From Lenzites betulinus (taxonomy: Eukaryota; Basidiomycota; Agaricomycetes; Polyporales; Polyporaceae), in contig JABYQU010000015.1 of NCBI GenBank assembly GCA_022264855.1, positions 372,001-436,000 of the forward strand: 64,000 nucleotides of DNA, given 5' to 3'. The translations under genes and the position numbers were made by a program. The notes under the pieces were generated by a model. The model was not told the DNA's origin, searched no databases, and worked only from the letters and a program-made list of their open reading frames with translations. Positions 34,112 to 53,485 of this stretch are shown piece after piece (the stretch's first letter is position 1; each line of letters begins with the position of its first letter).

Positions 34112-34125
34112 GTGCGCCCTAACTC
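34112..34125. repeat. LINE target-site duplication, left copy
   Basis: GTGCGCCCTAACTC (plus a following T shared with the T-run) is repeated exactly at 53472-53485. It lies directly beside the 21-T run that marks the poly(A) end of the element, exactly where target-primed reverse transcription places it. Confidence 0.93.
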
Positions 34126-34146
34126 TTTTTTTTTTTTTTTTTTTTT
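34126..34146 (-). other. Poly(A) tail of the LINE (21 T on + strand)
   Basis: A pure run of 21 T on the given strand equals a poly(A) tail in LINE orientation. It follows about 130 bp of 3' UTR after the original ORF2 stop at 34277. Confidence 0.9.
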
Positions 34147-34276
34147 GGTGCAACCCAGCTTCCGGGCCATTGGCCCTCCACTGGGCGGAGCAGGTAGTTG
34201 AGGGGTTCGCACCCATCGCACCACGGGGGAAATGCATTATGCACGCTGTCGCAGTGTGGGGCTTCTCCAGGCGCCG

Positions 34277-34353
34277 TCACCCGGTGCGGTGTCGGTCGCC
34301 GTCACAGAGCATACCCACTAAAACCCCCGGCGTTCCGATCCAGTTCTCTGGGA
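34277..34353 (-). pseudogene. Detached C-terminal end of LINE ORF2
   Basis: Past the hAT and the second copy of its 8-bp target, the ORF2 frame continues on the minus strand for 22 codons (NWIGTPGVLVGM-type residues) to a TGA at 34277-34279. The frame is preserved exactly across the target duplication. This shows the hAT landed in an intact ORF2. Confidence 0.85.
34346..34353. repeat. hAT 8-bp target duplication, left copy
   Basis: CTCTGGGA directly precedes the hAT terminus and is repeated at 38391-38398. Eight base pairs is the hAT-superfamily signature. Confidence 0.95.
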
Positions 34354-34382
34354 TAGGGTACCGTGAAGAAGTGCTTGCTTTT

Positions 34383-34472
34383 TAACAGCTGTTTATTAAC
34401 CGTGTTAATAACATGTTAATAACTGTTAACAAGCCGCATGCCCCAGGAGCCCGGTTAATAAGTGTTAATAAG
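34383..34472 (+). repeat. hAT left subterminal TTAATAA cluster
   Basis: TTAATAA occurs at 34405, 34416, 34455 and 34465, with the reverse complement TTATTAA at 34393. Such subterminal arrays are the usual binding sites of hAT transposases. Confidence 0.75.
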
Positions 34473-34704
34473 GCCGGGAACTCATCTGGCCGATGGGCGA
34501 CAGACTTGGTGAGGGCCTGTGCCTGGGCAGGGGTTGAGGAAGATCTGTATAGTCCGTTGAGTGACATCATTGGGCAACGTCCCAAGGAAGCAGCTTCCGA
34601 CCGGTCACCGCGCCGCGCCGACCTCATCTTCCAGCACTCAAATACTCAGGAAACGCCCTCTACTCACTGTCTTGCATAAACTCCTGCCTTCACAAGACTG
34701 GGAA

Positions 34705-37700
34705 ATGGCTCTTGGTGCTTCTCGTCGCCTCGCAGAGCTAGGAGACATACTTGCCAACCTTCCCGAGACTCTCCCGTGCCCGGCATTCTCCGAAAATTTC
34801 CCATTTGTTGGCTTCCAAGTCGATCCTGAAGATGTTGACATGGTGGGGACAGTCTCCGGTGCTATAAACCGTGCTCTGGAGTTAGCTTTCGGGTGGGAAG
34901 CGAGGAGCAAAGGCACCCTTCCCATCACGGAGCGTGGTCCGGGTGTGTGTGCGCTTGTGGAAGTTCTCAAGCTTTACCAGGAGGCCTGCGATAACCCTGA
35001 GTCGGATGCAATCCTCCTAAAGTGGATTGATGACATCCGTGCCGGTGCAGAAGAAGCCTATCGCCTTGCTAATTGCCCCGTAAGTATCAATTGCGTCCTG
35101 CAGTACGAAGCTCAGCTCTGAGTACTTACCAGCTCCCCACATGGCAGTTCCCGCCCCAGGGTTTGGAAGCAGCGCATGAGACACATGGATCCGCGGGATC
35201 TTCCGCCGCTATGAAGCTTCCGAGCAAGAAGCGGAAACGAGCCACCTCCGAGTGGGAGAGTGATGACGATGAAGTGCATGCCTCTGCCAATGCAAGGGTT
35301 AGTTAACTACTAGTGTAGCATTAATGTAAATGTGAATGCCGAAGACTGAATGATCACTTTACATACAGGACAAGGACAAGGCCATGCCGCAACGCAAGGA
35401 TCTCCTTGATGTGCCGTGGTCACCTCCCACGAAGAAGACAAAGGGTCGGCCCAAAAAGGAAGCAAACGTCAAGCTCGCTATCAAGTGCAAGCATCGCACG
35501 TCCGGGAAGGCCTACTACCGCTGTGTTGCTGAAAACTGCGACTACATTCGCTTCGGTCATCCTCAGAGCCACCGTGTTCTCAAGCATGCGGTCCAATGTC
35601 GGCAGCTGCCACCAGACCTGCGTGAGAAAGCACTCGAGTGGTCAGCCGCAGAGTCGCTCAGCTCGCAACTCGAGGGCGCAGTGAAGTCGGCTCCAGACAC
35701 TGCAACTTCTACTCCACCCACCGACTCTGCCGGGACCACCACCCCGCTTGCGAAGTTACAGACACAGCTTGCACGCGATGCTAGTGGCGACTCGAAGGAG
35801 CCCCAGGTGAAGAAAGGAGGTCTGGGGGAGGTGCTTGTCTCCGTTGGACGTGAAGAGCTCCGTAAGAAGGTGGACTTTCATGTTGTAAAGCTCATCTGTG
35901 TGCGTGGCCTTATCCCGACGGTTGTCGACACCCGCGAATGGAAGGATCTCGTCGGGGAGCTCAACCCGCGGTACAAACCGACCTCGTCCACCACTTTCGT
36001 CGAAAAATATATTCCATCGGAGGCTGCCCAAGTACGCGTCCTACAGCTCGAGATCCTCAGGACGTTGGACAACCTGACCTTGACGTACGATGGAGGATCA
36101 ACTCGAAAGCCACAGTCAGTGTACACAGTGCATATCACGACCCCGGATCGTCGCGTTTTCTTCGTTACAGGTGACGAAGCCACACGCGAACATCATACTG
36201 CTGAGTATGTCAAGGGAGTCATTGTGGAGGTGTGTTGTTTCCTAGCTCCCATTTTACTGCTCATTTTGAATTCCCTATAGGTCATACAACGTGTTGGGCC
36301 AGAGAGGTTCTCCGGTGTATGCTCAGATAACACTGGGAACACCCGTAAAGCACGTGAGCTTCTCGTTCAGAGTCTACCAGCCATTGTCAACCTCCTCGAC
36401 TGCTGCCACCACCTTCACAACACATCCAAGGATATCACACAGCTGTCGGACTTCAAGGAGGTACGTTCTACAGAGGTTTAATTGACAATTTGCTTACAAC
36501 GTCGGTGGTAGTTTATTTCGTCGCTCCGCAACATCATTAAGTACTTCAAGAAGTCGAACATTGCATCTGCGGAGTTGACCATCGCACGCGCTGAAGAAGG
36601 TGCTGGGCTGCGTGGGTTGCAAAGCATTGGGAAGACTCGATTCGCGACCGTGTATTGGAGTGCGGAATCGCTGTGCACTAGCCTGCCGCTCATCCGGAGG
36701 CTTGTAAGCTCCAATAAGCTTGCCCTCAAGGTCCTTTGTTACGCATTTTGAGCGTGCTCTTGGACTGACATTTTCGGTGATCTTACAGGATGTCAGATTC
36801 GAGAAGGCACTGCTCGAGGAGGGCAGCATGGCCTCGATGAACTTCGAGATCCAACTACGCCGCTACATCTCAATCGTAGCTCCAATCGCACGTGCCATCA
36901 AGAGCCTCGAATCGACCGATGCGACCGCAGCAGACGTCTTTGTATTCTGGCACGGCATTGCCGCCATGCTGCGTGACCTCCTTGGTCGTCCCGAGGCAGA
37001 GACGTCCATCTCTCCGGTCCTGGCTGGCAAGATTCGCGCAATTGTCAACAGACGCTTCAAGGAAATTATCGACCACGCCCCTGCTGACATTTATTTCACC
37101 GCCTTTTTTCTCCATCCAAGTGAGTAGCTTATGTGCTTATGCCTTTCAATACTGACAACACGTTTATGATTCAGAATACGCTCGTTCTGGCATTCTTGCA
37201 AAGCCAACGTCGATGTCAAACTCCATCTTTGTACCGCCTCATCCCAAGGCGAACTCGAAGACCTCAGACAAGCGAGACGATAGTGAGGATACTCCAAACC
37301 CCCGCGCGTTCCGCCGTGCCAAGCAGTTCCTTAAGGGCCAGCTGCGGGAGGAGATGAATCGCAAGATACACCGGGTCGTCCGTGAGAACAAGCGCAAGAA
37401 GGTTGTCCTTGACTTCCGACAGCAACTTCTGGCGTATGCCAAAGGCGAGTGGCCGTTCAACCAGCCGCTTGACGAGACCAAGGGGGATGGCCGTCCAGTC
37501 ATGCAGTGGTGGCTGGATCTCGCGTCGCATCCGCATGCACAAGTCCTCGCGGTGAGTACACTGTCTATTCAACCTGCAGAGTCGCTCGGTCACTGTAGCT
37601 AATCCTCCGCATGCAGATGCTCGCCATCAAGATCTATTCAATTGCTATCAACTCCATGGCAGACGAGCGTACACAGTCAAACTTTACATGGTTTAACTCC

Positions 37701-38190
37701 GCACTGCGCAACCGCCAAGAGGTCAGCACACTCGTCAACATGATCCAAGTTCGCCAGTGGTACCTCAACAAAGTAGTTTCCTTCAAACCATGTTCTTGTG
37801 CTGCCACACTCACCTTTGCACTCTCAGGACCTCAGCCGCCCACCACGCACATCCCCCACGGTTCGCTGGGCCGATTTCGACAAGAGCCTCTCGGAACGAC
37901 GTCAAAGGGCTGAAGAAGATCTTGGGGAGGAGGAGTTCTTTGAGGAATGGCCCAACGACGACCACAGGAGGCCATCCGAACATATGGCATCCGAATCTGA
38001 GCTCGACGACGCGGCCTTTGAGGCCGACTCGCAGATGGATCTTTCTGCGGCTGCGCTGCGCACGCTGCTTCGCGAGAAATTGGAGGAAGAAGAGTCTGAT
38101 TCTGACAATGAGAGCTCTGGTAATGTGGAGGGCGCGGCGGCGAGTGCTACAGAGGACGAGAGCGACGACAACGAGCTCTGGGATTTCTAG
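34705..38190 (+). CDS. hAT transposase (DUF659 and hAT-C), spliced
   Basis: Exon 1 starts at ATG 34705 (MALGASRRLAELGDILANL) and ends at 35079. Exon 2 starts at 35148 with FPPQGLEAAHE and an NLS-like KLPSKKRKRA. Exon 3 contains MPQRKDLLDVPWSPPTKKTK, then a BED-like zinc finger (CKHRTSGKAYYRC, VLKHAVQC). The DUF659/RNase-H core has LTYDGGSTRKPQSVYTVHI, VFFVTGDEATREHH, FSGVCSDNTGNTRKARELL and LLDCCHHLHNTSKDI; its acidic residues fit the expected DDE positions. The C-terminal dimerisation region has SNFTWFNSALRNRQEVSTL and IQVRQWYLNK. The tail is acidic, ending ESDDNELWDF. Six or seven introns. No stop or frameshift was seen in the joined exons, so it may be active. Confidence 0.88.
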
Positions 38191-38212
38191 CTACGCAGAG
38201 GATCGCCTCGCA

Positions 38213-38362
38213 CTATAATTAACAAGCTTCCCGGTTAATAACATCTGTTAATAAGTGTTTCTAACAGGTTTAATATGTTGTTAACAGTCTGGTTAATAAG
38301 CGTTAATAACCCTGGTTAACAAGTGGCCTTCCGGGGTGCCGGTTATTAACTGTTGGTTAGAA
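38213..38362 (+). repeat. hAT right subterminal TTAATAA cluster
   Basis: TTAATAA occurs at 38235, 38248, 38293 and 38303, with TTATTAA at 38343. The count (four direct, one inverted, the inverted one outermost) is the same as at the left end. Confidence 0.75.
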
Positions 38363-38387
38363 AGCCGGATGACTTTTTCACGGTACC

Positions 38388-41300
38388 CTACTCTGGGAGC
38401 GCGGCTTCATCGCACAACGTTCCTCTCCAGGTATCGAGGACTTTCTTCTCCGGAATCGCTCTCCTTCCCCATTTCTTCTTCGTGCGCTCCATGTCCAGGC
38501 GCAGCCGTTCATTCATCACAGTACTCCACAGCCTCCGGATGTGGGCCGCACTGTGTACTTTTGTCGGAGTGTCGCACCAGCCAATGACACGCTCACATCT
38601 GAGTCGCCAGATGAGGTACATCGTTTCGGGCACAACGATTCGCACAAGCCTCGTCTTCCCGTGGTCAACGTTCCCGTCGCCATCTTTGATCGACAATGAC
38701 GGTGCTCCCAGGGCCAGCCCCGTCGATAGGGGCGGCATCTTTATGCCCCTGCGGGCCAGGGTCTCTTCAGACAGGTCCCACAGGAGCCGCTGGCCGGGCG
38801 CCACGCATTCCCGGATGATATGGTCCAGCGACTCCTCCACCTCACATGTATTGCATAAGGCCCGATTTTCGTAGCCCGGTATGTTCCACCAGTAGCTTCC
38901 TACTCTGTGTACCTCATGCATGGCCTTCCAGAAGAAGACTGATACTTTGGTCGCTATGTCTGGTCCTTGCACGTTCCTCCACAGGCTTTCTGTCGATGGC
39001 CATACGTTCAGGCCTAGTTGCATACCCTCTTTTATCATTTCCACATTTCGGTCTGTCCTTCTCCTGCCTCGACGCGGGGACCAGCTCATTATTCCCCTAT
39101 AGGCCAGTTTTTGGGTGAGCGCGGACAGTTTCGCACCCGGCAGTAGGAAGCGTCTGTCATCTTCCGTAAGTTGCGTTAGTTGGGTCCGCGGCAGTTTCGT
39201 GCCTTCGGCAGCCAACTTGTCAGCCTCCTCATTACCTTTGATTCCAGCATGGCCTTTCACCCACTTGAGGGTGGTGGTGGCGCTGCGCCTTCGCAGTCTG
39301 GCCACCACTCGCCGTAGAATGTCTTTGTTTGCGACGTCTATCCAGCCTCTATTCTCCCACCTTTCCAGGTGCAGGGTTAGGCCTTTGTAGATGTACATGG
39401 AGTCTGTCAGCACTAGCAGCGGCACAAAATCGGGGGCGCACTCCGTCGCCATTAGGACTGCATACGCCTCGGCCGCCTGATTTGATTGGTCTGTCCCCGG
39501 CACACGTCTGGCGCAGTTGAGACTGCATCCTGTCGCAACCCACCTTCCGGATCCCGCCGCCGCGTTCTCCGCGCCATTATCTTGGCAGGAACCGTCTGTG
39601 TATACCGTAACTGCTTCATCTTGCAGCTGGAAGGGGCGTGCCGCACGTCGCGCTCTTTTCCTCTCGGTGTCCTCCGGTCGCACGAAGATACGGAAAGCGT
39701 CTCCTACTATGTCAGTGGCTGATGTGCTGGGGTTGAAGAGTAGTTCACTCCCATCCTGTGCATTTGCCACATTCGCCGCTCGGCGCGTTCTGGTGAGGCT
39801 CAGGTTATCCGCCGGCACGTCTACACTCGGCCTCCACTTCTCTCTCAGCCTCGCTAGCATGGTACTTGCCGCCTTCGCACATCTCGCGGGGTCGTCGCAT
39901 CCCCTTAACGTTCTGTCGTCTACACACTGGGCACACCGGCAGTCTTTCCTCGCCCTGTGTCTCTCCGTACTTGTGGGCTGTCGCACAGTCTTCAAACAGT
40001 CAGCGACCGTCATCACCCCGTGGTTCTCCCGTAGACATCTCCCTGACTTGGAGTTCGCCGAACTTCTCTCCTGCACAAGCGCGAAGTGGTACCATACCGG
40101 CAGGGCTTCGGTTAGGTTTCTGCTTGGGCTCATGGCATCAAGCCTGACTCCGAACTTTCTCGCCACCTTGATCATCTTGGCCAGGTCTCTCGGTAGCCCC
40201 GCCGTTGAGGCGGTGTTGATATCCCATGATTGCAAGAACACGTTTACTCTGGCGCGTTTGTCGACCACCCGTTGCGGTGCAAGGATTGCTCTGGCCACCA
40301 GGGCGTCCGCCACGAAAGCCCATCGCGGTCTCGCGCTTGACAGATCCAGGTATTCCTTCAGCCACATCAGTTCGATGGCTTCATTTCTCGCACTCAGGCA
40401 CAGCAGGCCCAGACCACCTTCCCCAGCTCTGGCCGTAGTAACCTCTTCCGCTACCGCAGCCGGCCTCCCTTGCCACAGGAAGTCTGCAGTTATCTTCTTT
40501 AGGCGGGTTTCGACAGTTGTCGGCATCCCTTGTACTCTCGTCAGGTATTGTGTACGGCTTCCCACCTCCAGGTTCGCAATTAATTGCCTGCCTCTGAGGG
40601 TTGGGCGGCGCCTCTCCCAGCGATCTAGGTTCCGTTCGATGGTGTCGACCACCGGTATCCACGGCGCTTCGTCATCCTGTCCCGGGCCAAGCCACGCACC
40701 TAGGATTCGTGTCGCCTCGCCTTCCTCTAGTATCCTGGTCCCAGCCGGCATTGCATTTTCCCCCGCGGGTATAGCCCTTGCTAGTCTCAGCCGGTCGCGG
40801 TACGTTCTTGGCCCGATCGGTATTACCACCGTCTTCGGCTCGTTAAACTTCGCCCTTGCCCCGGCGCACCACCTGTTTAGGATGGCCAGGAGGTCGTTGT
40901 AGCTGTCAGTTCCCCTCATGAAGACAGTTGTATCATCCGCGAACATCGTCGTGATCACCCTCTCAGGCAGCCCCGGTACAGTGATTCCATCTAGCTTCGA
41001 GGCACGCAGTGAACATGCGAGTGGCTCTATGGCCAGGTTAAACAGTAGGCAGGATAGGGGGTCACCTTGTCTGACTCCGCGTCTCACGGCGAAGCTTGCG
41101 CTTAGTACACCGTTCAACATTACCGCACTTCGGGCGCTCCGATACAGTGCTTTTATCGTGTTTATAAAGCGCTCAGGAAAGTTCATTTTCTTTAGCACGG
41201 CCCACAGGTACTCATGGTTGACTCTGTCATACGCTTTCTCTTGGTCAAGCGCCACAATCGCGCCCTCAACCTCCTCGGCCTCAGCATATGCCATAATTTG

Positions 41301-43565
41301 CCGGGTGAGCTTTACGTTGTCGTGTATTTTGCGCCCGGCCACGAAGCCAGCTTGGTCCGGATGTATTAGGTGGTCCGCTACGAGGGCGAGTTTCATGGAC
41401 AGTGCTTTCGTGAGCATTTTGTAATCGGCGTTCAGGACCGTGATCGGTCTATAATTGTTGATATCTCTCACGTCTCCTTTCAGTTTATATATGGGGCATA
41501 TCCATCCTAGCGCTAGCGGGGAGTCCTCGGGGAGTCCGTTCGCCTCTATATCGTTGAAGGCCGTCTGGAGCATGGCCGTTACGTTGAAGGCCGGCTCATT
41601 TTTCTTTACGTCCCTCTCCCACCTCCTGTGCATTGCTTGCCAGAACTCCGTCGTTAGACCGTCCAGCCCCGCCGCTTTTCTTGTTGCCGCGCTCTCCAGT
41701 GCTTGTTGCACTTCTATTCTAGTAAGCCGTTCGCCCAGCTTCCCTTTCTGTCTTGCGTTCAATCCCACGTCTACATCATTTAGAGCCTCGTTTACCGCGA
41801 CTGCCTGGCCCTCGGGCCCTTCGAGGGTGTCGTCGTCTTGGATACTATCATAGTGTTTCATAGCCAGGTTCGCCATTGCACTCGATGAGGTTGCCGCGCC
41901 TGTGGGGTCGCCTCCGGCATTCCTCAGCTCGTAGAAGGGGTCTCTTCGAGGGCGTTCTTTCCCCTGTCCAAGCCAGAAGCGTGACATTCGTTCCCCTTCA
42001 ATCCACTGTCTCGTGCGTGCCTCTTCTCGCTTGTTCTCAAAGCGTTTCTCTTCCATCGTGGCCAACGTCTTCTTCAGTATTCCCATTGTGCGCCTGTTCT
42101 TCTCGCCCTCTACACCTTCGTCGATGTTTGTTTGGGCAATCTCGTTGACCTTCTCCTTCAGGTTCTTGATTTTCCGGTCCCATTTGGCGTACAGCGCCTT
42201 CACTCGGCTTCGCGCCCTTGATACTACATTTTGTTTAAATTCGAAGTACACCTCCTGCACACAGCTCGGGCTGCCTCCGGATTGGTGTGAGACCATCTTT
42301 TCATGGCACACACGGCCCTCCTTGACAGTCTCGTCGAGGAAGAGGCGGTCCGTTACTACACACTTCGGGATGACCCAGCGGCCTGTCCCTATGAAGGGGT
42401 CCCCGTAGTTCGCTACGGTCACGGAGGCGAGGCTGTGGTCTGTGCACACTCCGGAGCCAGCGACTTTCCAGTCTGCTGCTTTGTTCATGAGGTCGGTCGC
42501 AATGTATATTCTATCGATGCGGGACTGGCTTCCTGTACTTTCTTGTGTGAAGGTGAACGTTCTGACACCAGGGTGCGTCGCCCTCCACCCGTCGGTTAGC
42601 CGCAGGGTGCGCAGTACAGTTCTCAAGCTTGACCTCGGCTTCTCCGGGTCCGGTCTCGATGGTGCGCGGTCCTCCTTTGCCTCCACCACGTTGCAGTCCC
42701 CCATCAGGATGTCCGGTTTCCGACTTCCTGTGTTGTCGAAGTAGGAGGTTATGTTGTCCCAGAAAGTCGCATTTTCAGTGGCGGCGTTTGGTGCGTATAC
42801 GTTCAGCACACGCATAGTTCCTGCCGCTCCCCACCGTATGCTGATCATGATTGCTCTGCCCGGTAGTAGTTCCGTTATCGGCACACCTTCCTCGGTGTCT
42901 ATTACTCGTTTGTTTATTACGAAAGCCACGCCCCTCGCCGCCGTTGGCGAGATAGGATCTAGAGACGCCACAATCATCAGGGAGTCCGCGAAGAGGCGGT
43001 TCAGGGATATCACTTTTTCTTGGGTAAGATGCGTTTCTTGCACCGCTAGCACGGCCAGGTGCTCACACTTCATTAGTTGGTTTATACGCATCCACTTCTC
43101 ACCGGGGTTTGCGTCAGTTACAGGTCCACCTCCACGTATGTTTAGAGTCGCTAATTTCATTCTGCCTTTGGACTTCTTTCCCGCTTCGCGTCTATGTCGC
43201 GGGGTTGCCGGCTCGTACGCTCCGGCCGTGCTGCTCCTCTGGCTTCCGGTTTGTTGGTCGGAGGCCCTCGCTCTCTCGGTTTGCTGTAGGGCGTCTCCAC
43301 TGCTGCTCCAAGGTCCAGCCTCGGGCTCCGTGGTTTCGACGTTGGGGGGGGCACCATGGCCAGCCGTGGTGGCGCCATTGCCGAACTCGGGGCGTCCGTC
43401 ATCAGGACTGAGGGTTATGGCGCGGGACTCAGGCCCTCTGGGCACCTCGAGGCGCGTGTTCTGTAGGTCCGACGTTTCGTTGTCCGTGTGTGTGGTGGTA
43501 TTGATTGTGTTGTTTGCAGCTGATGTAGCCCTTGGGGTTACAGCCGTCTCCCCGAGGCGCTGCAT
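38388..43565 (-). CDS. LINE ORF2: APE endonuclease, reverse transcriptase, RNase H
   Basis: 1,725 codons, uninterrupted from ATG 43565. Residues 1-135 are a disordered Thr/Ser-rich extension. The APE endonuclease follows from about 137 (KLATLNIRGGG, AVQETHL, RVLNVYAPN, LMGDCNVVEAKED, SRIDRIYI, TDHSLASV). The reverse transcriptase has NNYRPITVLNADYKMLTK, IVALDQEKAYDRVNHEYLW, RRGVRQGDPLSCLLFN and MFADDTTVFM (FADD near residue 875). RNase H starts near 1320 (VYTDGSC, AAEAYAVLMATE, VLTDSMYI, WVKGHAGIKGNEEADKLA). A zf-RVT-like CNTCEVEESLDHIIREC is near the C-terminus. All catalytic motifs are intact. The present stop TAG (38388-38390) is the end of the hAT terminal repeat; the original stop lies at 34277, so 22 residues are lost. 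Confidence 0.95.
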   Translation of the reverse strand: MQRLGETAVTPRATSAANNTINTTTHTDNETSDLQNTRLEVPRGPESRAITLSPDDGRPEFGNGATTAGHGAPPNVETTEPEAGPWSSSGDALQQTERARASDQQTGSQRSSTAGAYEPATPRHRREAGKKSKGRMKLATLNIRGGGPVTDANPGEKWMRINQLMKCEHLAVLAVQETHLTQEKVISLNRLFADSLMIVASLDPISPTAARGVAFVINKRVIDTEEGVPITELLPGRAIMISIRWGAAGTMRVLNVYAPNAATENATFWDNITSYFDNTGSRKPDILMGDCNVVEAKEDRAPSRPDPEKPRSSLRTVLRTLRLTDGWRATHPGVRTFTFTQESTGSQSRIDRIYIATDLMNKAADWKVAGSGVCTDHSLASVTVANYGDPFIGTGRWVIPKCVVTDRLFLDETVKEGRVCHEKMVSHQSGGSPSCVQEVYFEFKQNVVSRARSRVKALYAKWDRKIKNLKEKVNEIAQTNIDEGVEGEKNRRTMGILKKTLATMEEKRFENKREEARTRQWIEGERMSRFWLGQGKERPRRDPFYELRNAGGDPTGAATSSSAMANLAMKHYDSIQDDDTLEGPEGQAVAVNEALNDVDVGLNARQKGKLGERLTRIEVQQALESAATRKAAGLDGLTTEFWQAMHRRWERDVKKNEPAFNVTAMLQTAFNDIEANGLPEDSPLALGWICPIYKLKGDVRDINNYRPITVLNADYKMLTKALSMKLALVADHLIHPDQAGFVAGRKIHDNVKLTRQIMAYAEAEEVEGAIVALDQEKAYDRVNHEYLWAVLKKMNFPERFINTIKALYRSARSAVMLNGVLSASFAVRRGVRQGDPLSCLLFNLAIEPLACSLRASKLDGITVPGLPERVITTMFADDTTVFMRGTDSYNDLLAILNRWCAGARAKFNEPKTVVIPIGPRTYRDRLRLARAIPAGENAMPAGTRILEEGEATRILGAWLGPGQDDEAPWIPVVDTIERNLDRWERRRPTLRGRQLIANLEVGSRTQYLTRVQGMPTTVETRLKKITADFLWQGRPAAVAEEVTTARAGEGGLGLLCLSARNEAIELMWLKEYLDLSSARPRWAFVADALVARAILAPQRVVDKRARVNVFLQSWDINTASTAGLPRDLAKMIKVARKFGVRLDAMSPSRNLTEALPVWYHFALVQERSSANSKSGRCLRENHGVMTVADCLKTVRQPTSTERHRARKDCRCAQCVDDRTLRGCDDPARCAKAASTMLARLREKWRPSVDVPADNLSLTRTRRAANVANAQDGSELLFNPSTSATDIVGDAFRIFVRPEDTERKRARRAARPFQLQDEAVTVYTDGSCQDNGAENAAAGSGRWVATGCSLNCARRVPGTDQSNQAAEAYAVLMATECAPDFVPLLVLTDSMYIYKGLTLHLERWENRGWIDVANKDILRRVVARLRRRSATTTLKWVKGHAGIKGNEEADKLAAEGTKLPRTQLTQLTEDDRRFLLPGAKLSALTQKLAYRGIMSWSPRRGRRRTDRNVEMIKEGMQLGLNVWPSTESLWRNVQGPDIATKVSVFFWKAMHEVHRVGSYWWNIPGYENRALCNTCEVEESLDHIIRECVAPGQRLLWDLSEETLARRGIKMPPLSTGLALGAPSLSIKDGDGNVDHGKTRLVRIVVPETMYLIWRLRCERVIGWCDTPTKVHSAAHIRRLWSTVMNERLRLDMERTKKKWGRRAIPEKKVLDTWRGTLCDEAALPE
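38391..38398. repeat. hAT 8-bp target duplication, right copy
   Basis: CTCTGGGA immediately after the right hAT terminus, identical to 34346-34353. Confidence 0.95.
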
Positions 43566-43869
43566 TGTCCGGCAGCTCGGATTCAGCGGTGCGGCTTCCC
43601 TTTATCCAGCGGTCGGCGCGCTTGAGCCTCTCGGCACGGGCAGCTGTGGCCTCAATAGGCCCCCGTTGGTTTCGCTCCCCAGCCGCTTTCCTGTGTCCAG
43701 TGGACCAGTGTATTTGGGCGTGCTGGGGGGCCTGCCGCGGGCCGGCTTGGCTGGCTGGGCCGGCCCATGGCGTCGCCCGCGGCCAGTTTTCAGGGGCGAC
43801 ACTGTGTGTTATGCATAGTGGGACGATACTATCTGTAGCATTGTGCGCTGATGGTGTCTATCAGGTATG

Positions 43870-45093
43870 TTACATTCCTTGCCCTTCGTAGTGCTGTCCC
43901 CTGCCCGGTGTCATGCTCCGTGTACCTCTGTATGCACCGAAACCTCTCCCTCTGCCTCTAAAGGTGCCGGTCTGAGTGTGTGTCGTCTGGTGTGCTTGGG
44001 CCATCTCATTCTCCTGCGTTTGCTGCGGTCTGATGCGCCCGAAGCTGCGAGATTTGATTGGGGGGGCGTTCCAACCTTGGATATGTGGGAAGGGGCATTT
44101 GTGGGACACATGGTCCGCGCTGTGGCACACAAGGCATAGCTCGATTCTCCTCGCTGTCGCAACGGGGTTGTACTGGCTGTAGAAGGGCATCCTCATGAGG
44201 CTCGATCTCCACTGTTTCCAGGTCTCGGCGTTCCCGGTCGGCGAGCTGCAGAAGACCGCCGCTTGCATGTTACCGTTACTGAGCTGGTCTATACGGACTT
44301 CTACGCTTGCGGCTATGATAGCGGCGGCGACATCGGGGGGGGAGTATTGGAGCGAGGGGTGGCTCTGGACGAGGTCCGTGATTGTAGCGAGGATGGGTTC
44401 GTTCGCGAAGGCTTTCCGGACCGAGTCTACAACGTCGTTGTTGTGGTTCGTCGTGAAGCCCGCCAGCGTGAAGAGGTAGCGCGGTATTACGAGTTTCCTC
44501 TCGTACATGAAGAGGGTTATCCATACGCACGAGAGCACCTTGATTTTCGCCAGCTCCGTGATCCTCGGTTTCGAGAGCCCACGGATGATCCAAGTCTTAG
44601 GCGTACCCGTGCGACCCGGAGGTCTTACCCACTCAGGTTGCGGCGCTATTGGTACGAAACCCGTCTCGCCTGTGACGTGGTGGAGGGCTTCGTAGATCTC
44701 GTCGCATATCGGCTTCCGTTGGTGCGGCTCTGGGTATCCGACGTTCGCCACCTGCACGAAAAGGATAGTGCCTTCTTCGCACTTCCAGGCTTCGTCGACC
44801 CTGGTCATGGCGAGGTCTTCTATGAGGCCCTCGGGGTGTGGCTGGTGGACCGTGGGGAAGCCGTTCTCGGGGGCTGGGGTGAATCCATATCCGTCTGCCC
44901 CGGGCGTGGCCGGGGCTGTGTGTGGCTGTGGGTTCTCCAGTCCACCTTGCGTCCAGGGGGTGGCCTGTCTATCTGTTCTGGCATGCGGTGCTAGGAAGGA
45001 GGGAAGGACCTCTACGTGCGACTGTCCCGCAGGGTCGTTGTTCTCGTCGCGTACGGTGGTCTTCATTTCGTTGCTAGAGAGTCGCCCTCTCAC
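43870..45093 (-). CDS. LINE gag-like ORF with CCHC knuckle (proximal copy)
   Basis: An open frame of 407 codons begins with a GTG at 45093; the first ATG is about nine codons later (MKTTVRDENN). It has a structured central region (EGTILFVQVANVGYPEPHQR, TWIIRGLSKPRITELAKIK, VIPRYLFTLAGFTTNH). A CX2CX4HX4C zinc knuckle follows (CLVCHSADHVSHKCPF), then an Arg/Gly-rich RNA-binding tail. This is the arrangement of LINE ORF1 nucleic-acid-binding proteins. It ends about 300 bp before ORF2 starts. The frame upstream (45167-46285) may be its N-terminal half, split off by a frameshift. Confidence 0.75.
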   Translation of the reverse strand: MRGRLSSNEMKTTVRDENNDPAGQSHVEVLPSFLAPHARTDRQATPWTQGGLENPQPHTAPATPGADGYGFTPAPENGFPTVHQPHPEGLIEDLAMTRVDEAWKCEEGTILFVQVANVGYPEPHQRKPICDEIYEALHHVTGETGFVPIAPQPEWVRPPGRTGTPKTWIIRGLSKPRITELAKIKVLSCVWITLFMYERKLVIPRYLFTLAGFTTNHNNDVVDSVRKAFANEPILATITDLVQSHPSLQYSPPDVAAAIIAASVEVRIDQLSNGNMQAAVFCSSPTGNAETWKQWRSSLMRMPFYSQYNPVATARRIELCLVCHSADHVSHKCPFPHIQGWNAPPIKSRSFGRIRPQQTQENEMAQAHQTTHTQTGTFRGRGRGFGAYRGTRSMTPGRGQHYEGQGM

Positions 45094-45166
45094 CGGTGTT
45101 ATTGAGGTGTTAGCGACCCATTTGTTCAGACCCTTCGTCGTTAGTGAGCATTGTTTCTTCAGTCCA

Positions 45167-46285
45167 TTATTGGGTACGTACGTGCTCCGCGTTCACGGGT
45201 ACTGTGTCTTTCGCTCCGGCTCCGTCTACGTCCATGTTGACATCAAGGGCGCTCCACGGGAAGTTGGTCGTTTGATTCGTGCGACTCGCGACAGGAGTTT
45301 TCGACGGGGCAGTGCTGGTCTTATCAACTTCCTTCCCTTTGGTCGTGCTGATCACAGATCCAGGCAGGTCGGGAGGGATCGTGGATTTCAGCCAGCAGGC
45401 GGTGTTGTCCGTACTGTCCAGAGGGTCCTCGGGGGGCGGCAGTGTGGGAGAGGGTCGTGCTGGGGTAGCGTTGTCCTGTCCCGGCTGGCCTGCCCTCGGG
45501 GGCTGTTGGGCGCGGAACTTCCGGAATCGTACGTAGGTTTCATGTCCTCGCTGCCCTCTCGGTGGCGGGGTATTCGGCCGCTGTCTTTTCCTGGACATGT
45601 GCTCATCTCTGGCCTCTTCTCGTCCTGGGATGGTATTTCCGAAGCGGTCAACACCGTTTGTCACGAAGCGTTCGATGTCCTTCCCGTCTGAGATTACGGT
45701 GTCGCCGATGGCCGCGGCATAGTCCTCCGACGTGACACTGTCACTGCCGTGTACGGATAGGTTGCGCCAATCTTCCGTGGTCGGGGAGTCGTATCTTCTG
45801 GGGGAGCTAGGCTCGCTAACACCGTCAGAGGTCCAGTTTCGGAGCATATACTGTCCCTCCAACAGGGGGGGGATGGGTTCTAGTTCCGGTGCTAGCGAGT
45901 GTTCGTAGAGCGTTCTCGGCGCGCTCGGTCCTGGGGTTGGCTGCCATTGGATGGCGCCGGTAGTGCCTCCTTCACGGGATGCTTGGTTGGCGTCGCCCAC
46001 GGGCGCTGCGCTGTCCTGGCTTGGGCTGGTGGTCAGGCCGCCGCCCTGTTATTCGTTAGCAGGACAGAGCGGTCGCTTCCCATTTCGTCTCACCGTTACT
46101 AGGAGCTGGTGGGTCGTTCGTCCGTCCATTCTCGTGGCTAGCTCTGCCGCCCTCTGATTGTAGTGTTCCTGCGCCATTTTGATCTGCTTCTGCTTGGGGG
46201 TCGTTGGCGGGCTTGCCACAGCCTGTGCGTATGTGTACGGTTTAGGGGCCCCCGGGCCGGGTTGGGTGTGTGCAGCGGGTTGCAT
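45167..46285 (-). CDS. LINE ORF1 N-terminal frame with one in-frame TAA
   Basis: From ATG 46285 (MQPAAHTQPG, then KPYTYAQAVASPPTTPKQKQ) the frame runs to 45167 and is broken only by a TAA at 46049-46051. Coding-like sequence continues at once (QGGGLTTSPSQDSAAP, then GDANQASREGGTTG). The next frame, 45093-43870, starts 74 bp beyond its end in another register. The Tyr/Ala/Gln-rich start resembles ORF1 N-termini of Tad1-type elements. Either a decayed ORF1 or a stop-readthrough arrangement. Confidence 0.55.
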
Positions 46286-46638
46286 AGTGCGTGTTGGACG
46301 ATGCGATGAAAGTGGGCTGAGGTGAGGTCCGACTGGCCAGTTGTTGTGTGGTCGGTGGCGTCTGCCTCAGTCTTTTAAGCATTCCCATTGCATTTTGGCG
46401 CGTGTGGTGTCATGATTCCTGTCTTTCACGGCATGGTTGCTGGCAGGGTTCGTTCGTCTATTACCTGCTCACAGCTGTCTGCTGGTCCAGGCGCTGCTCT
46501 GCCATCCTGTCATTCTCGTTTCGTTCTGGCTGGTTACTCTCCTTAGTCGTTTCGTTGCAGTGAGAAAGCATGTTTCAAGATGGGTTAGGGGGTCTGCGTA
46601 CGTATGTACAAACTATGGCCAGCTCATGGCGGCACGTC

Positions 46639-48321
46639 CTAATCCTGACCGCGTGCATTTTTCTTCCTCCTGCTTCCTCTCGCTTCCGCTCCGATCCAGC
46701 CCACGATGTTCTTCTTGTCGTACATGCACAGGTGGGTAGTGTGATCGACCCCATGACACGTCTTGCAGCGACATCCGGTTCTCGGCTTTCCGGTGGCGAA
46801 GGGGAGGGTGGTTTTCAGGATCGTCTTCCTCCATTCTTCCCAGTCGTTCCCGTGTAGCGTCGGCGGTCTGCAGTATATCCTCGCGACCGGGCCATTGATC
46901 GAGCGGTACATATCGCCTCCCATGTCTTTGACACTCACGCGTACAGAGTTCACCACGGCTCGGACGCCTTCCATTGGTGACGCGAATTGCGTTGTTTCGT
47001 CGTTTGCGATGACGCGGCAGGTCTCGCGGAGGATGTCCCCGGTGAGCATGATTGCTTTCATGGCCGCTTCTATCTCGAGTTCGTCCTTCGTTCTGAGGGA
47101 CGTTGCAGCGAAGAGGAACATCGGCACAATCGGGTCACGTTCGATGATTCTGAAAGGGGCTAGCGCGTTGTCCCAGGTCGTCCTGTTGCGTAGCGTCGCG
47201 TGCGAGGATGGGCGCAGGTTTTTGAGGATCCATACCGTAGGGGCGTTCCATTTCGCTCCTTGGATCGGGATATCCGGTTTCTCTACCTCGACTCCCTCAT
47301 CTCCGGTGATTAGGACCACGGCGTTTCGGAGCTGTTGGCCGATCGTATTGAGTTGTTCGTTATCGACGTCCCCGGGTCCGAAGACGTCTACCATGCACGC
47401 GGTGTTGGCGGGGAGCTTGTCGAAAGCTTTAATCCTCGTCGGCGGGATGTGGCGCAGGTGGTCCCAGGGGCCGGCTGTGTGAACTCTCGGGAAGCCCCGC
47501 GCTGGCTCTCGCGTAACATGTAGCATCCCGGTGTCGTACGGTTTCGTCTTGCCTCCGTCCGCTGTTAGGCCCGGCGTTATGTAGAAGATGTGCTCCAGTT
47601 CACGCGCGCGCCGCACCACATCGTCATCTCGTACCGCCCGTTCGCCGTCCTGTTCCTGGGTGGGCGTTTCGCTGTGGGTGGTCGGCTCCTCGCTCACCCG
47701 GCACGGCGTGCGTAGCCCTTGGCCGTAGTTGCGGGAGTTTGTGAGGGTCCCGGGGGTCAACTCGGTCCAGGTGGTTTCAGGGAGCTTCCAGTCGCTGTCG
47801 GGCCGCCCCGATCGTGCGTCGTAGGGGTGGGGTCGTTGCTGGGGGAGGTATCGCTGCATGTACTCTCCTTCCTCGCTGCCGGTTTGCCCCAGAGGTTCTG
47901 TGATCGTGAGCGTTGGGTAGACACTTCCGATATGCGGTGCTGCTACTGCGGGACCGTTTTCGCGGGGTGTTCCGGGCCACGCCCCGGCTTCTGGGCCCGT
48001 GCACGCGAGGGGGGCTGGGGGAGCGGGTGGTTGGATATATACCCCGTTCTCGGCCAGGGTCTTCAGACCGAGCGTGACGATCTGCAGCAGCATGCTCATG
48101 TTGGGCTGCTGCGTGGCCGGGGTCTCGGTGTGTTCGTCTTGGGCGATTCTCTTGCGGTCGTCGCTCGTTTTCTGTCTTTTTTGCGCGATGTCCACGGGCG
48201 GCGTGTGCGGCCTCTTTTCGGCGGACGCCGTTTGTCTGGCGACAGGGGGGTCACCGGTGCGGGGGTCGTAGGGGGGCGGGGCGGGCTTGTGGACGGTGAG
48301 AGGGGCTCGCACATAGCGCAC
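46639..48321 (-). CDS. LINE gag-like ORF with CCHC knuckle (distal copy)
   Basis: 560 open codons. The frame opens with GTG right after a TAA and has no ATG close to its start. The N-terminal 130 residues are Pro/Thr-rich and basic (KRPHTPPVDIAQKRQKTSDD), followed by MSMLLQIVTLGLKTLAEN. The central domain (CMVDVFGPGDVDNEQLNTIG, WILKNLRPSSHATLRNRT, PIVPMFLFAATSLRTKDELE) and knuckle (CKTCHGVDHTTHLC) parallel the 43870-45093 ORF. Both have the CHxxDHxxHxC pattern and a WK/EEW.. segment just before it. This suggests an internal gag duplication or an acquired second gag. Confidence 0.72.
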   Translation of the reverse strand: MRYVRAPLTVHKPAPPPYDPRTGDPPVARQTASAEKRPHTPPVDIAQKRQKTSDDRKRIAQDEHTETPATQQPNMSMLLQIVTLGLKTLAENGVYIQPPAPPAPLACTGPEAGAWPGTPRENGPAVAAPHIGSVYPTLTITEPLGQTGSEEGEYMQRYLPQQRPHPYDARSGRPDSDWKLPETTWTELTPGTLTNSRNYGQGLRTPCRVSEEPTTHSETPTQEQDGERAVRDDDVVRRARELEHIFYITPGLTADGGKTKPYDTGMLHVTREPARGFPRVHTAGPWDHLRHIPPTRIKAFDKLPANTACMVDVFGPGDVDNEQLNTIGQQLRNAVVLITGDEGVEVEKPDIPIQGAKWNAPTVWILKNLRPSSHATLRNRTTWDNALAPFRIIERDPIVPMFLFAATSLRTKDELEIEAAMKAIMLTGDILRETCRVIANDETTQFASPMEGVRAVVNSVRVSVKDMGGDMYRSINGPVARIYCRPPTLHGNDWEEWRKTILKTTLPFATGKPRTGCRCKTCHGVDHTTHLCMYDKKNIVGWIGAEARGSRRKKNARGQD

Positions 48322-48941
48322 GACGACTTACTTCATGGCCCACCAGTCCTGTGTTGATCTGTTTTCCCCATATATCGTCGTCCTCTGTTATTTCATCAAG
48401 GCCCATTCTTCCGGGTTCGTATGCGGCGCGCGTTTCGTCCTCCTGCTCTTCCCAGAGTCCAAAGAGTGCGGGGACATCCTCGGGGTGCCAGCGCCAGATT
48501 CGGGGGGCTTTGGTCGAGCGGTGGAGGGGAGTCGGGCACGTATTCGTACCTCCGCAGCACAGGCGCTTCGTTCACCATCTTCCGTCCGTTTCTGCGCAGG
48601 GACGTTCGAGGTCGTGTGTGTGTTGAAGAGGGTGGCAAGGGAGGTTGCAGGGCAGGGTAAGCAGGTCGTACTGACAGGCCGCCACGAGGCTGACGCCGAC
48701 GCCTCCGGCTTGCTCGCGCCCCGATTCTCCATATCGGCCTTGTTGGGCGCGAGATCGCGCTGGCGAGCAGGGGGCGGTCGGGGAGGGAGGGTGCGTCGAC
48801 GTCGCTCGGGCGCTCGGTCGTCTTCTCCTCCTCGGGGTCCAAGGCAGTTTGTTGTGGTTTGTTTGTGACTCTCGGCTGCTTCTCGACTTTGTTTATTGTT
48901 ATATCCTCCTGGCGCTCCGTTTGCGCGTCCCGCGAGCGCAA
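48251..48941 (-). pseudogene. LINE upstream frames split by a +1 shift
   Basis: Two overlapping minus-strand frames look coding. The first (48941 down to about 48510) has no ATG until MVNEAPVLRRYEYVPDSPPP. The second (about 48565 down to 48251) continues as RIWRWHPEDVPALFGLWEEQ and GRMGLDEITEDDDIWGKQIN. The natural hand-over point is a run of six C (48502-48507 on + as G). The second frame in turn overlaps the start of the 560-codon gag-like ORF. Frameshift decay or a programmed shift are both possible. Confidence 0.4.
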
Positions 48942-49299: not shown

Positions 49300-49850
49300 T
49301 TGTCGAGCTCTCGTGCTCTTACGTTCAAGTCGGCTGGGAGGGGTGTGTCTCTAGTTTCATTGTCCACTTATGGTATGTCAGGTTCTTTAGTGTTTGGCTG
49401 TTTGTGTCCTTGACGTCAGGGTCTGGCTGTCCAGACGTGCGTTTTCTGGTATGTTGTGGATTGTTTCTTTCGTCGTTTCACTCACGCTGTGTAGCTTCGT
49501 TTCCAGCTTTATTCCAGTCTCGGCCGTCTCGTCGCATGTTGCTGTCATTGTTTGCACCAGCGTGTTCATTTGGTTTCCTTACGGGCTTCCTTTTCCGCAG
49601 CTTCCATCCTAGATCGTCCACGCGGGTTGCCTTGTGGCTTGCGTTATTAATCCGTTGTCCAGGTGGTTCGCATTTGTCAGGCTTATGATGCGTTGCCTAG
49701 GCGAGTTTCGGGCGTGGCAATTTCACCTTTGGCGTCCTCCGGTTTTGGCGTATCTTTTGTTTCTGCCGGACACCGCCTTCGGCAGGCTTATCTGCGTTCG
49801 TCCGGCAGGAGATAGAGGCCGATAGACGGGGGGAAAGAGAGGGGGAAAAA
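49300..49850 (-). pseudogene. Fragmentary coding-like frames in LINE 5' region
   Basis: On the minus strand short stretches in different frames have the Lys/Glu/Asn/Thr-rich make-up of real protein: GQRINNASHKATRVDDLGW then NNDSNMRRDGRDWNKAGNEA, MNTLVQTMTATCDETAETG, and EDAKGEIATPETRLGNAS. They abut stops and frame changes. I read them as remnants of another ORF, not as a current gene. Confidence 0.3.
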
Positions 49851-49945
49851 AAAGGGGGGGTGACGGTTAGGGTTCACCGTGTGTGCATTTACTACTGGTG
49901 CGTTTTCATACATTGCTCTCTCGTCGTGCTCTCCTCGGGCCTACT

Positions 49946-50446
49946 CTATGTTCCTTCCTCATCTGACTCTTCAAGGCTTTTCACCGGCGCATTCGCCCTT
50001 CCAACCGCCGGCAGCCTTCTCGTCGCCTTCGACGTCCACGATATCGCCCTATGAGTCGCCCAGTGTCTCCAGCTCAGCGCGACGGTTTCGGCGGTGAGTT
50101 CCACCGTCAGGTATACGAGTTCGATCATTGACCACTCGACCTCGTTCTTGACGACGAACTCCACTGTGTTTCTCTCCAGGGTCCTTATCTGCTCCACGTA
50201 TCCTTCAACGCCCAGGTCGACTGCCCTCGACGGTATCGGCTCTGCGTCCTCGCCGTGTTGTCCTTCGTCAACGCCCGTAATTCCTCTCATCCTCACTTTC
50301 TGTCCGATCGTGATGGGGTTTGCGGGTACGATGGCTACGTCGTACCATGCAGCGTGCTTCCATGTCATGTTCTCGGGGTTGTGGGTGGGTGCTAGGCCTC
50401 TCTCCCTTACTATGATGGTGTTGACGGGAGTGGCAAGGGGGGGCAT
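49946..50446 (-). CDS. LINE small ORF of unknown function
   Basis: 166 codons from ATG 50446 (MPPLATPVNTIIVRERGLAP). The composition is that of a soluble protein (YDVAIVPANPITIGQKVRMR, EGYVEQIRTLERNTVEFVVK, NEVEWSMIELVYLTVELTAE), ending in an acidic SLEESDEEGT. No known domain is recognised. It is the first ORF of the element in transcript orientation. A poly-pyrimidine stretch (on -, 49830-49860) follows it. Confidence 0.5.
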   Translation of the reverse strand: MPPLATPVNTIIVRERGLAPTHNPENMTWKHAAWYDVAIVPANPITIGQKVRMRGITGVDEGQHGEDAEPIPSRAVDLGVEGYVEQIRTLERNTVEFVVKNEVEWSMIELVYLTVELTAETVALSWRHWATHRAISWTSKATRRLPAVGRANAPVKSLEESDEEGT

Positions 50447-52016
50447 TGTCGTGGTCGTGTATCAGGTGGGTGGGTGACGTTCGGCCCTCTGGGATTTTAT
50501 ACTCCGGCGGCGTCGGTTCTCACCCTGCTTCCTGGTCAGCTGTCTTCCGTGTCTCATTTGTCAGTCAGGCGCGCGGGCTCCGTGGCTTCCTCTCATTGGC
50601 TTTGGCTCTTATTTCGTAACTAGAAACTTTGTTCCTACATATGCTGGGCTGAACATTGCTTGGCTTGGGATCTATCTTTACTGTCCAAAATCGGTTACGT
50701 TCGTTCGCATGTAGCGTGACCACTACTTCATTATACTTTACTAGCTGGCGGCATCAGTTTTTGGATTTGAGGATCCTGCATTCTTGTATATGCATAGTTC
50801 TGGCCCCATGCTCATGTTTTATTTTATTCTATTACGTCACTACCTTGTAGGCTTGTGCAGGCTGTTCCTAGCATTGTTTGTTGGGTATTTGTTCTGTGAT
50901 TCTAGCCTTGTTATATGTTGGGGTGGAGGCGGCCTTGCCGTCCGTTCAGTATGTTTAATTCATTGGCCGGTTATTCTTATGTTTCTCCGATTTCGGGAGG
51001 GGCTTGGCTTGTCCTTTCTTTGGTAGGCTTTGTGTTACCTATGCTCCTTCATAGGGGGGGGCTTCCTGCGTATCGTGGGGAGGGGGGGGGCGGGGGCTAG
51101 ACCGCCATGGCACCAGTACACCGGGTCTATTCCGCCGGCATGTCTCCCGCCTATTCGGACCGCTTCGCGCTGTTTAATTGTGATGCGATGTTTGGACATA
51201 CGTTCGGTTTCAGGATTCGAGTGCATGCCTTTTGGCGTTCTGGTCGTTTGCTGCATTGGCACTCGCGCCTCCGGCGATATTCGCCATGTTCAGGTGGGCG
51301 AGCATTTGTTTCTCGCTAGTTTTCAGATATCAGTCTATTAATCTACGGTTATTCAGCCATATCTTCCTTTAGGCGTCTTGGGGCACCTTTCGGTCCGGTC
51401 CGGCGCGTCTGTCGGCTTGTGCCTGTTTGGTCCTAGTTGCATCTGCTATTGCGGCCAATTAGTTGTGGCGCTTGCGCGGTGTATGGTTTATACTCGTTGT
51501 GTTAGATGTCTGTTTTGTTCTTGCATTTGGCGCCTGCACGGGCCGTGTCGTTTATAGGAGCGGTTCATCCGGCTGTGTGTACTCGTCCCTTTTGTACAGT
51601 TCACCAGTCGTGTACAGAGCGCAGTTTAGCTTGGTCGTATTCTCCGCTGTACCGTACTTCTTTCCACTGCGGGCGCTACCTTTAGGTCACTCGTTCGAGC
51701 CCGGGATTGCTTATTTATTTCATTTTGTTCTGGTCGCCTTATCAGTCCGCGGGTCACACGTTCAGGCCCACTCCTTGCCTCTCTTTTCTCCTCGTCCTTT
51801 CTCTCGCAGGGGGGTTAGCTGCCGTGGCGTTACTGTTACTTGGTTCATTGCGACTTATTGTCTGATTTCGCTGTCTTCTATGTGGATCCTTGTCCTGATG
51901 TTGCGTGTCGGCCTCGTCTTATCTTATCTTGCTAGCGCTATGATTGGCGCCTCACACGTGGTGGTCATGCTTCTGGGTTAGGGTTTGCACTGTATCACCC
52001 CTTCCCGTGTATCGTG

Positions 52017-52942
52017 TAGGGTACCGTGAAGAAGTGCTTGCTTTTTAACAGCTGTTTATTAACCGTGTTAATAACATGTTAATAACTGTTAACAAGCCGC
52101 ATGCCCCAGGAGCCCGGTTAATAAGTGTTAATAAGGCCGGGAACTCATCTGGCCGATGGGCGACAGACTTGGTGAGGGCCTGTGCCTGGGCAGGGGTTGA
52201 GGAAGATCTGTATAGTCCGTTGAGTGACATCATTGGGCAACGTCCCAAGGAAGCAGCTTCCGACCGGTCACCGCGCCGCGCCGACCTCATCTTCCAGCAC
52301 TCAAATACTCAGGAAACGCCCTCTACTCACTGTCTTGCATAAACTCCTGCCTTCACAAGACTGGGAAATGGCTCTTGGTGCTTCTCGTCGCCTCGCAGAG
52401 CTAGGAGACATACTTGCCAACCTTCCCGAGACTCTCCCGTGCCCGGCATTCTCCGAAAATTTCCCATTTGTTGGCTTCCAAGTCGATCCTGAAGATGTTG
52501 ACATGGTGGGGACAGTCTCCGGTGCTATAAACCGTGCTCTGGAGTTAGCTTTCGGGTGGGAAGCGAGGAGCAAAGGCACCCTTCCCATCACGGAGCGTGG
52601 TCCGGGTGTGTGTGCGCTTGTGGAAGTTCTCAAGCTTTACCAGGAGGCCTGCGATAACCCTGAGTCGGATGCAATCCTCCTAAAGTGGATTGATGACATC
52701 CGTGCCGGTGCAGAAGAAGCCTATCGCCTTGCTAATTGCCCCGTAAGTATCAATTGCGTCCTGCAGTACGAAGCTCAGCTCTGAGTACTTACCAGCTCCC
52801 CACATGGCAGTTCCCGCCCCAGGGTTTGGAAGCAGCGCATGAGACACATGGATCCGCGGGATCTTCCGCCGCTATGAAGCTTCCGAGCAAGAAGCGGAAA
52901 CGAGCCACCTCCGAGTGGGAGAGTGATGACGATGAAGTGCAT
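52017..52942 (+). mobile_element. 5' fragment of a second hAT copy (926 bp)
   Basis: It starts with the same terminus TAGGGTACCGTGAA and matches 34354-35279 at a constant offset of 17,663 bases without an indel. Every translation I compared is identical. It retains the left terminal repeat, left TTAATAA cluster, transposase exon 1 (52368-52742) and half of exon 2. It breaks off after GAAGTGCAT. The 8 bases before it are GTATCGTG. Confidence 0.93.
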
Positions 52943-52959
52943 TCACGATACTATCGTGA
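52943..52959. other. Palindromic excision/repair scar
   Basis: TCACGATAC followed by TATCGTGA. The first nine bases are the reverse complement of GTATCGTGA, that is, of the left-hand 8-bp target (GTATCGTG, 52009-52016) plus the next flanking base. The second part is the same flank in direct orientation lacking its first base. This is the shape expected from a hairpinned flank opened off-centre after hAT excision. Confidence 0.6.
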
Positions 52960-52967
52960 GCGAGGCC

Positions 52968-52983
52968 GGGGGGGGGGGGGGGG
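52968..52983 (+). repeat. Run of 16 G
   Basis: Pure G run 9 bp from the scar, followed by GATCATTC. Possible G-quadruplex former. Confidence 0.85.
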
Positions 52984-53471
52984 ATCATTCTGAGCCGGTA
53001 GGTATTGTTATCTTAGACCCCGAGGGGTGGGCTCCTAGGAGCTTACTCCGGAGAGTTTCAAGTGCAGTGGGGGGCGTTGTTTACGTGCATCCGTGCGGGG
53101 GCTTACACTGACAGGCTGGCCCTTCTCTGCTGACTCTCGTTCCGTTTCCCTCCCTTCATTGGCTCGAGATTGGGTCGCCTACTTAAGGTGTCATATGTTC
53201 CACCTCTCTGTCGGCAGTGCCTTTCTCACTCTATTCTTCGGCTGTGTTCATTTGGAGTTCCACCGTTTATGTGCTCATTTGTTGTGTTCGCCGGTTTCGA
53301 GGCTTCTTGCGTGGTCTGTGTTTTCGCTCTGCTGTGCACATTCGCTGGTCCTTCTTTATGTATTCGTCAGGTTATGGCACCTGCGATGCCCCCACGGTGA
53401 GCTGGCTCAGGCCCGGACCGTGGGAAAGTGCGACCAGGTGGTGGTGCGTGGAAGAGGAGCCCACATGATCC

Positions 53472-53485
53472 GTGCGCCCTAACTC
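53472..53485. repeat. LINE target-site duplication, right copy
   Basis: GTGCGCCCTAACTC followed by T, exact match to 34112-34125. Marks the 5' end of the LINE. Confidence 0.93.

Follow-up and report, generated by a model that had tools for sequence, protein, structure and literature searches.

Long interspersed nuclear elements (LINEs) are usually seen as compact elements with two open reading frames (ORFs), held back by the low processivity of their copying and by the frequent loss of their 5′ ends. Can a much longer stretch of DNA move as one LINE? This question is raised by a locus of the basidiomycete Lenzites betulinus, positions 34112-53485 of a stretch of 64,000 nt (the window; positions 372,001 to 436,000 of contig JABYQU010000015.1, assembly GCA_022264855.1), in which an earlier interpretation made from the letters alone, here termed the sequence-only reading, had proposed one element of about 14.4 kb. 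Our analysis makes it almost certain that 34112-53485, minus two pieces of hAT transposons, is a single minus-strand LINE of the autonomous type, a retrotransposon without long terminal repeats (LTRs), of about 14.36 kb, roughly double the ordinary LINE length, and that it belongs to a family of giants.

Boundaries and gene order of the element

A scan of the window allowing up to two mismatches located GTGCGCCCTAACTC at 34112-34125 and 53472-53485, exact in both places, and no third copy in the window at up to two mismatches. The T that follows matches on both sides, so that the direct repeat is 15 bp, and we annotated it as the target-site duplication (TSD) at the 5′ end (53472-53486) and the 3′ end (34112-34126) of the element. 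A run of 21 T (34126-34146) adjoins the 3′-side duplication with one T common to both, leaving the poly(A) tail at 34127-34146 on the minus strand (a T run on the plus strand). The preceding part (34147-34353, minus strand) holds the last ORF2 codons and a short 3′ untranslated region (UTR) ending in GGTTGCACC before the poly(A), and relatives end similarly. The sequence-only reading had given the repeat beside the T run as 14-15 bp and had named two nested hAT pieces and an ORF2 in the matching orientation; all three claims held.

The net length follows from 19345 bp, less 4045 bp for a complete hAT with one 8-bp duplication and about 943 bp for a hAT fragment with its duplication and footprint. 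Among the repeat families listed, only the 15-bp repeat links both ends besides the two hAT copies, and LTRs are thus lacking. The AT skew of the plus strand is strongly negative from about 39 to 52 kb, which agrees with one strand-biased unit.

Four ORFs are arranged on the minus strand in the order ORF0, gagA, gagB and ORF2. ORF0 (49946-50446) encodes 166 aa, is family-specific and has no recognised domain. The gagA gene (46639-48406; 573 aa) is read from exon 48406-48332, a putative intron at 48331-48286 and exon 48285-46639, and the spliced product is identical to a deposited L. betulinus protein (P0123). The gagB gene (43870-46285; 772 aa, with an RG-rich tail) is read from putative exons 46285-46094, 46045-45182 and 45132-43870, since a single 772-aa frame requires two putative introns (46093-46046 and 45181-45133). 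All three putative gag introns are of the GT...AG type with a CTAAC or CTCAC box. ORF2 (38388-43601, first ATG at 43565) carries apurinic/apyrimidinic endonuclease (APE), reverse transcriptase (RT) and RNase H domains. With an APE and a LINE-type RT in ORF2, no LTRs, a poly(A) tail and TSDs of variable length in the family, the element has the characters of a LINE.

A family of giant relatives

Relatives were sought in the 37.4-Mb L. betulinus assembly (108 contigs; the window lies on a 703155-base contig), and loci are named below by our own handles. ORF2 gave 27 scored matches (of 107 candidates), which outside the window copy were 41-56% identical. A search with just the RT part gave 68 matches, and 46 of these, window included, spanned at least 488 of 511 residues. 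Other fungi also have ORF2 relatives: among 416 similar database proteins, scored from the 7985 candidates sharing most words, the best (49% identical) came from Trametes versicolor. Three pairs of near-identical ORF2s (C40/C33, C15/C78 and C56/C25) with synonymous divergence (dS) of about 0.01 point to recent multiplication in at least three lineages.

Of the 26 fetched relatives, the 15 that match ORF0 were tested for TSDs and C31 was inspected separately, with the other 10 left out. All 15 showed TSDs of 12-21 bp and a poly(A) end, making 16 of 16 with the window copy (15 bp). Scoring compared the 3′ flank of each element with its own 5′ region, and in a control of 240 mismatched pairings the best repeat was 6-8 bp in 223 and reached at most 12 bp, in one pairing only. 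The weakest true TSD (L007) was also 12 bp, yet it lay exactly at the conserved 5′ end. In all but two of the 27 loci (25) an A-run lay within 1.5 kb past ORF2, the exceptions being the window copy, whose tail lies beyond the hAT, and C31. It should be noted that at all 16 target sites 0-4 A are flanked by a G/C base on either side, a possible endonuclease preference; the A-stretch, which may mark a weak preference, would suit annealing of a few T to the poly(A) tail.

The order ORF0-gagA-gagB-ORF2 recurs at C19, C28, C30, C32, C35, C41, C65 (two), C1 (two) and C25. These 11 two-gag elements measure 13.21-14.25 kb between the duplications, and four elements without a gagA match (C21, C27, C76, C78) measure 11.21-12.05 kb, with poly(A) and any unrecognised inserts counted. 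At C65, an element of 14.04 kb sits inside the gagA of another (14.18 kb after subtraction) with a TSD at the break, and joining the flanks restores an open frame of at least 355 aa that reads as gagA. Of all the evidence for movement of the entire 14 kb as a unit, this nested insertion is the strongest. In C31, gagA is missing from its expected place and so is the poly(A) end, and C31 looks like a broken copy. In addition, C21:1364694-1368266 contains ORF0 and a long gag frame with no RT match within 20 kb, possibly a non-autonomous relative or a deleted copy.

The relatives also share their beginning. The 5′ terminus of the window copy (53367-53471, minus strand) is a conserved 5′ UTR of about 100 nt with GGCTCCTCTTCCACGCACCACCA at 53461-53439. 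The sequence-only reading had proposed a genome search for copies with the same 5′ end, and 14 of the 15 relatives tested start with 1-6 variable bases followed by GCTC(C)TCTTCC...ACCACCA; the window copy has 10-11 bases before the motif, and C41, which lacks the common end, is probably slightly 5′-truncated. None of the 15 begins near 46300 or 43600 with duplications of its own. Searched across the genome, the exact motif gave 23 rows (3 overlapping) that mark 20 distinct places, and the reversed pattern gave none. Fourteen of these places are ends of the examined elements, three (C15, C33, C67) lie upstream of fetched ORF2s, and three others are at C70, C77 and C78:132211.

Tandem gag-like ORFs do look like two elements, and C31 has no gagA. 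The locus might therefore be composite, an ordinary 6-7 kb LINE (ORF1 and ORF2) beside or within a second element that supplied ORF0 and gagA, with the 15-bp match coincidental or belonging to one element only. We give this explanation very little credence: the four-ORF order stands between exact TSDs at 10 other loci and in the chimera C25, one 5′ motif is found at 20 places, the 14.04-kb unit has inserted as a whole, and the 12 gagAs fall into one clade, as do 11 of 12 two-gag ORF2s (see below). Differing TSDs and about 50% divergence also oppose the view that the relatives are segmental duplicates of one locus.

Several observations weigh against the interpretation as a single giant unit. 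The ORF2 relatives are only 41-56% identical, so that the family rests on structure with few near-identical copies, and the TSD test, being confined to relatives with an ORF0 match, favoured complete copies. The window copy itself is probably damaged, with a hAT in the end of ORF2. Its predicted three-exon gagB is deduced from GT-AG borders, a CTAAC box and the frame, and the gagB frame is uninterrupted (675-739 aa) in four two-gag relatives (C1, C32, C25, C65). Moreover, the unit is read from the genome sequence of one strain. Against this stand 15 of 15 TSD-bounded relatives of like order and size, the shared 5′ end and the nested insertion, by which the earlier proposal of a single non-LTR element of about 14.4 kb is borne out.

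Proteins of the giant LINEs

ORF2 contains the motifs FADD, TDGS, HAGIKGNEEAD, GDCN and TDHS, and its APE matches PF03372 in Pfam. Its best solved relative is human L1 ORF2p (PDB 8sxt, 4.3e-44), with 153 bits against 80 for R2, a lead rather than a clade placement. The sequence-only reading had suggested a relation to Tad1/I-like elements, which these matches do not establish. The in-frame TAG that ends ORF2 (38388-38390) comes from the hAT end, and beyond the hAT, from 34353 downwards, the frame read by eye continues for about two dozen codons.

Both gag products carry a Cx2Cx4Hx4C (CCHC) knuckle near the C-terminus, with its residues invariant in 11 gagA rows and 17 gagB rows. When an RNA recognition motif (RRM) was looked for ahead of the knuckle, a low-confidence model (pLDDT 56) gave weak matches to RRMs and to other ferredoxin-like folds, and no Pfam RRM was reported for the gags. 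The two proteins are homologues that match over 273 columns with 21% identity (probability 100, E 6.7e-40).

ORF0 aligns with 20 other loci, single-gag loci included, with products of 149-189 aa as cut; two of these reach the end of the stretch, two have no ATG at the chosen start, and L061 was omitted from the alignment (20 of 21 rows). Residues P41, G48, G82, E96 and N101 are invariant in the 20 rows. By eye only, ORF0 gives the impression of a strand-rich protein that has an RR motif and, at the C-terminus, an amphipathic stretch.

In every pair measured, nonsynonymous change per site was lower than synonymous change in all four ORFs, with several pairs near or at saturation. For C28/C30, the ratios (dN/dS) were 0.20 (ORF0), 0.10 (gagA), 0.04 (gagB) and 0.10 (ORF2), and other pairs reached up to 0.35. 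These values bear on whether ORF0, gagA or both are passengers, i.e., host genes picked up by the element, or 5′ transductions, that contribute nothing to mobility. ORF0 has no convincing relative in Pfam or PDB, and relatives without a gagA match (C21, C27, C76, C78) also move, as passengers would allow. However, ORF0 is present at 20 other loci including those with one gag and has dN/dS of 0.06-0.20 in four pairs, and gagA has 0.10-0.35 in three pairs. We consider passengers improbable.

Origin of the gag pair

A gag tree of 43 rows was built, omitting L001 (a duplicate of the window), L018, L020 and L024 (near copies) and L013 (C21, short frame); L027 had no gag. The 12 gagAs formed one supported clade (100/99), separate from every gagB. 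Their homology (E 6.7e-40) would suit a recent tandem duplication of gagB within the two-gag lineage, with gagA no separate older gag. Forcing gagA and the two-gag gagBs into one clade cost 60.7 log units (p-AU 3e-06, a value weakened by the group having been named after the tree was seen), and on this test, with its post hoc group, the recent duplication was rejected. The gagA profile also prefers the gags of C65c, C69, C42, C1d, C27b, C40b and C21b (E 1.7e-49, 29%) over gagB, although the gagB profile likewise prefers those other-locus gags over gagA (E 7e-47, 22%). A recent duplicate is, in our estimate, improbable; an older gagA/gagB duplication followed by losses is possible.

The RT tree comprised 27 loci of this genome and 12 of 120 listed database proteins. 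Eleven two-gag elements and the broken C31 grouped as a clade whose support (93/82) fell slightly short of the starred level, and C25 was distant, within another lineage; 11 of the 12 two-gag ORF2s grouped together. The two-gag label needs three changes on this tree; in our reading these are a single gain, an exchange in C25 and the breaking of C31. A single gain of gagA is thus probable, with a lineage resembling C65c or C69 as a possible source, though the gags of these resemble gagB nearly as well.

C25 and C56 look like chimeras, in which gagB is of the window type while ORF2 and the 3′ end are those of the C76/C78 lineage. C25 also has ORF0, gagA, its own TSD and a length of 14.25 kb, and the dS of 0.01 between the ORF2s of C25 and C56 suggests that the chimera has itself multiplied.

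The conserved 5′ RNA

The first ~100 nt are alike even where the ORF2s are 42% identical (window versus C78). In an alignment of 15 of the 16 elements (C41 omitted), two 5′ hairpins vary on both sides, and the named structure, of which one hairpin was drawn by eye, had 92.7% of cells paired and a covariation score of 0.144. Each value was matched by none of 500 shuffles, and slid controls were 33-44% paired. Other measures were less favourable: the count of further pair types was unremarkable (163 of 500 shuffles), there is little variation in the first small hairpin, and RNAalifold drew a different third helix at the 5′ end with a slightly unfavourable covariation term (+0.49). Folded as a single sequence, the window copy was ordinary (z -1.3), and two other elements gave z -2.5 and -3.3. 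We grade the support for conserved 5′ RNA hairpins as moderate. No self-cleaving ribozyme of an Rfam family was matched, either in 53300-53500 (up to E 10) or in 14 relatives (up to E 1).

Nested hAT pieces

The complete hAT (34354-38390) begins TAGGGTACCGTGAA, lies in the 3′ end of ORF2 and is flanked by 8-bp CTCTGGGA target duplications. The fragment (52017-52942, 926 bp) is 100% identical to 34354-35279, and both pieces are foreign to the LINE. On the truncated side of the fragment (52942-52958), an inverted copy of the 8-bp duplication precedes the duplication itself, one base short (CACGATAC-TATCGTG), a pattern resembling the footprint that an abortive hAT excision of the hairpin type would leave.

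A possible replication cycle

Target-primed reverse transcription (TPRT) is established for L1, an APE LINE, and from the anatomy of the giant LINE we infer mobilisation of the same kind. Transcription from the conserved 5′ terminus, a presumed promoter, would give one full-length polyadenylated RNA, which the two gag paralogues and perhaps ORF0 may coat in a packaging role. The APE domain of ORF2p would nick the target, and the 3′ end of the bottom strand would pair with the poly(A) and prime reverse transcription. RNase H would then clear the template, and second-strand synthesis across the staggered nick would produce the duplication of 12-21 bp. If the putative gag introns are real, the transposed form would be the unspliced RNA.

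We tentatively suggest, as a possibility short of even odds, that this lineage replicates with a hetero-gag particle, in which two anciently diverged, non-redundant gags and ORF0 act on a 14-kb intron-containing RNA and the conserved 5′ end, as an element for recognition or for the start, protects copies from being shortened. The model has a single gain of gagA and a later combination of the gag module with a foreign ORF2 in C25/C56, so that particle and polymerase modules would be exchangeable.

Comparison with known LINEs

With 46 long RT matches, one fungal genome holds dozens of diverged copies, and the 15 tested are insertions of 11-14 kb. If our interpretation is true, poly(A)-LINEs reach larger sizes than known so far, the family offers natural material on what makes LINE copying complete, and ORF0, gagA/gagB and the 5′ RNA are testable parts. 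The sequence-only reading had spoken of an undescribed giant lineage: the giant family stands, and its undescribed status fits the literature searched without being proven. No published LINE of comparable size or with two homologous gags was found in that literature, which did not cover Repbase and the main fungal-LINE survey.

L1 has a poly(A) end, variable TSDs and scattered insertion sites. The giant LINE has all three as well, together with a homologous APE and RT, but it is about twice as long and has RNase H, two CCHC gags and ORF0.

Among fungal LINEs, the clades named in the parts of the literature consulted are Tad, Deceiver and Inkcap (PMC4427930), Tad and Deceiver (PMC3411680), and Inkcap and Tad1 (PMC9674265), with which the giants share fungal hosts and a LINE-type RT. 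A Tad-like element described there has 5905 bp and two ORFs (PMC4427930), whereas the giants have 11.2-14.4 kb and three or four ORFs. In the Jockey superfamily, ORF1 evolution is reticulate, with transfer of whole ORF1s between lineages, and Type I ORF1 combines an RRM with CCHC (PMC4120745); gagA and gagB coexist in one element here, and two homologous ORF1s per element are not mentioned in the sections consulted of that paper. Hebe, a bdelloid LINE, resembles the giants, according to the portion of its description consulted, in copies that are not 5′-truncated, a CCHC ORF1 and poly(A), but it belongs to the jockey clade, has two ORFs and is subtelomeric (PMC2861651). We judge that the giant four-ORF LINEs with their gag pair are a variant within the known LINE kind.

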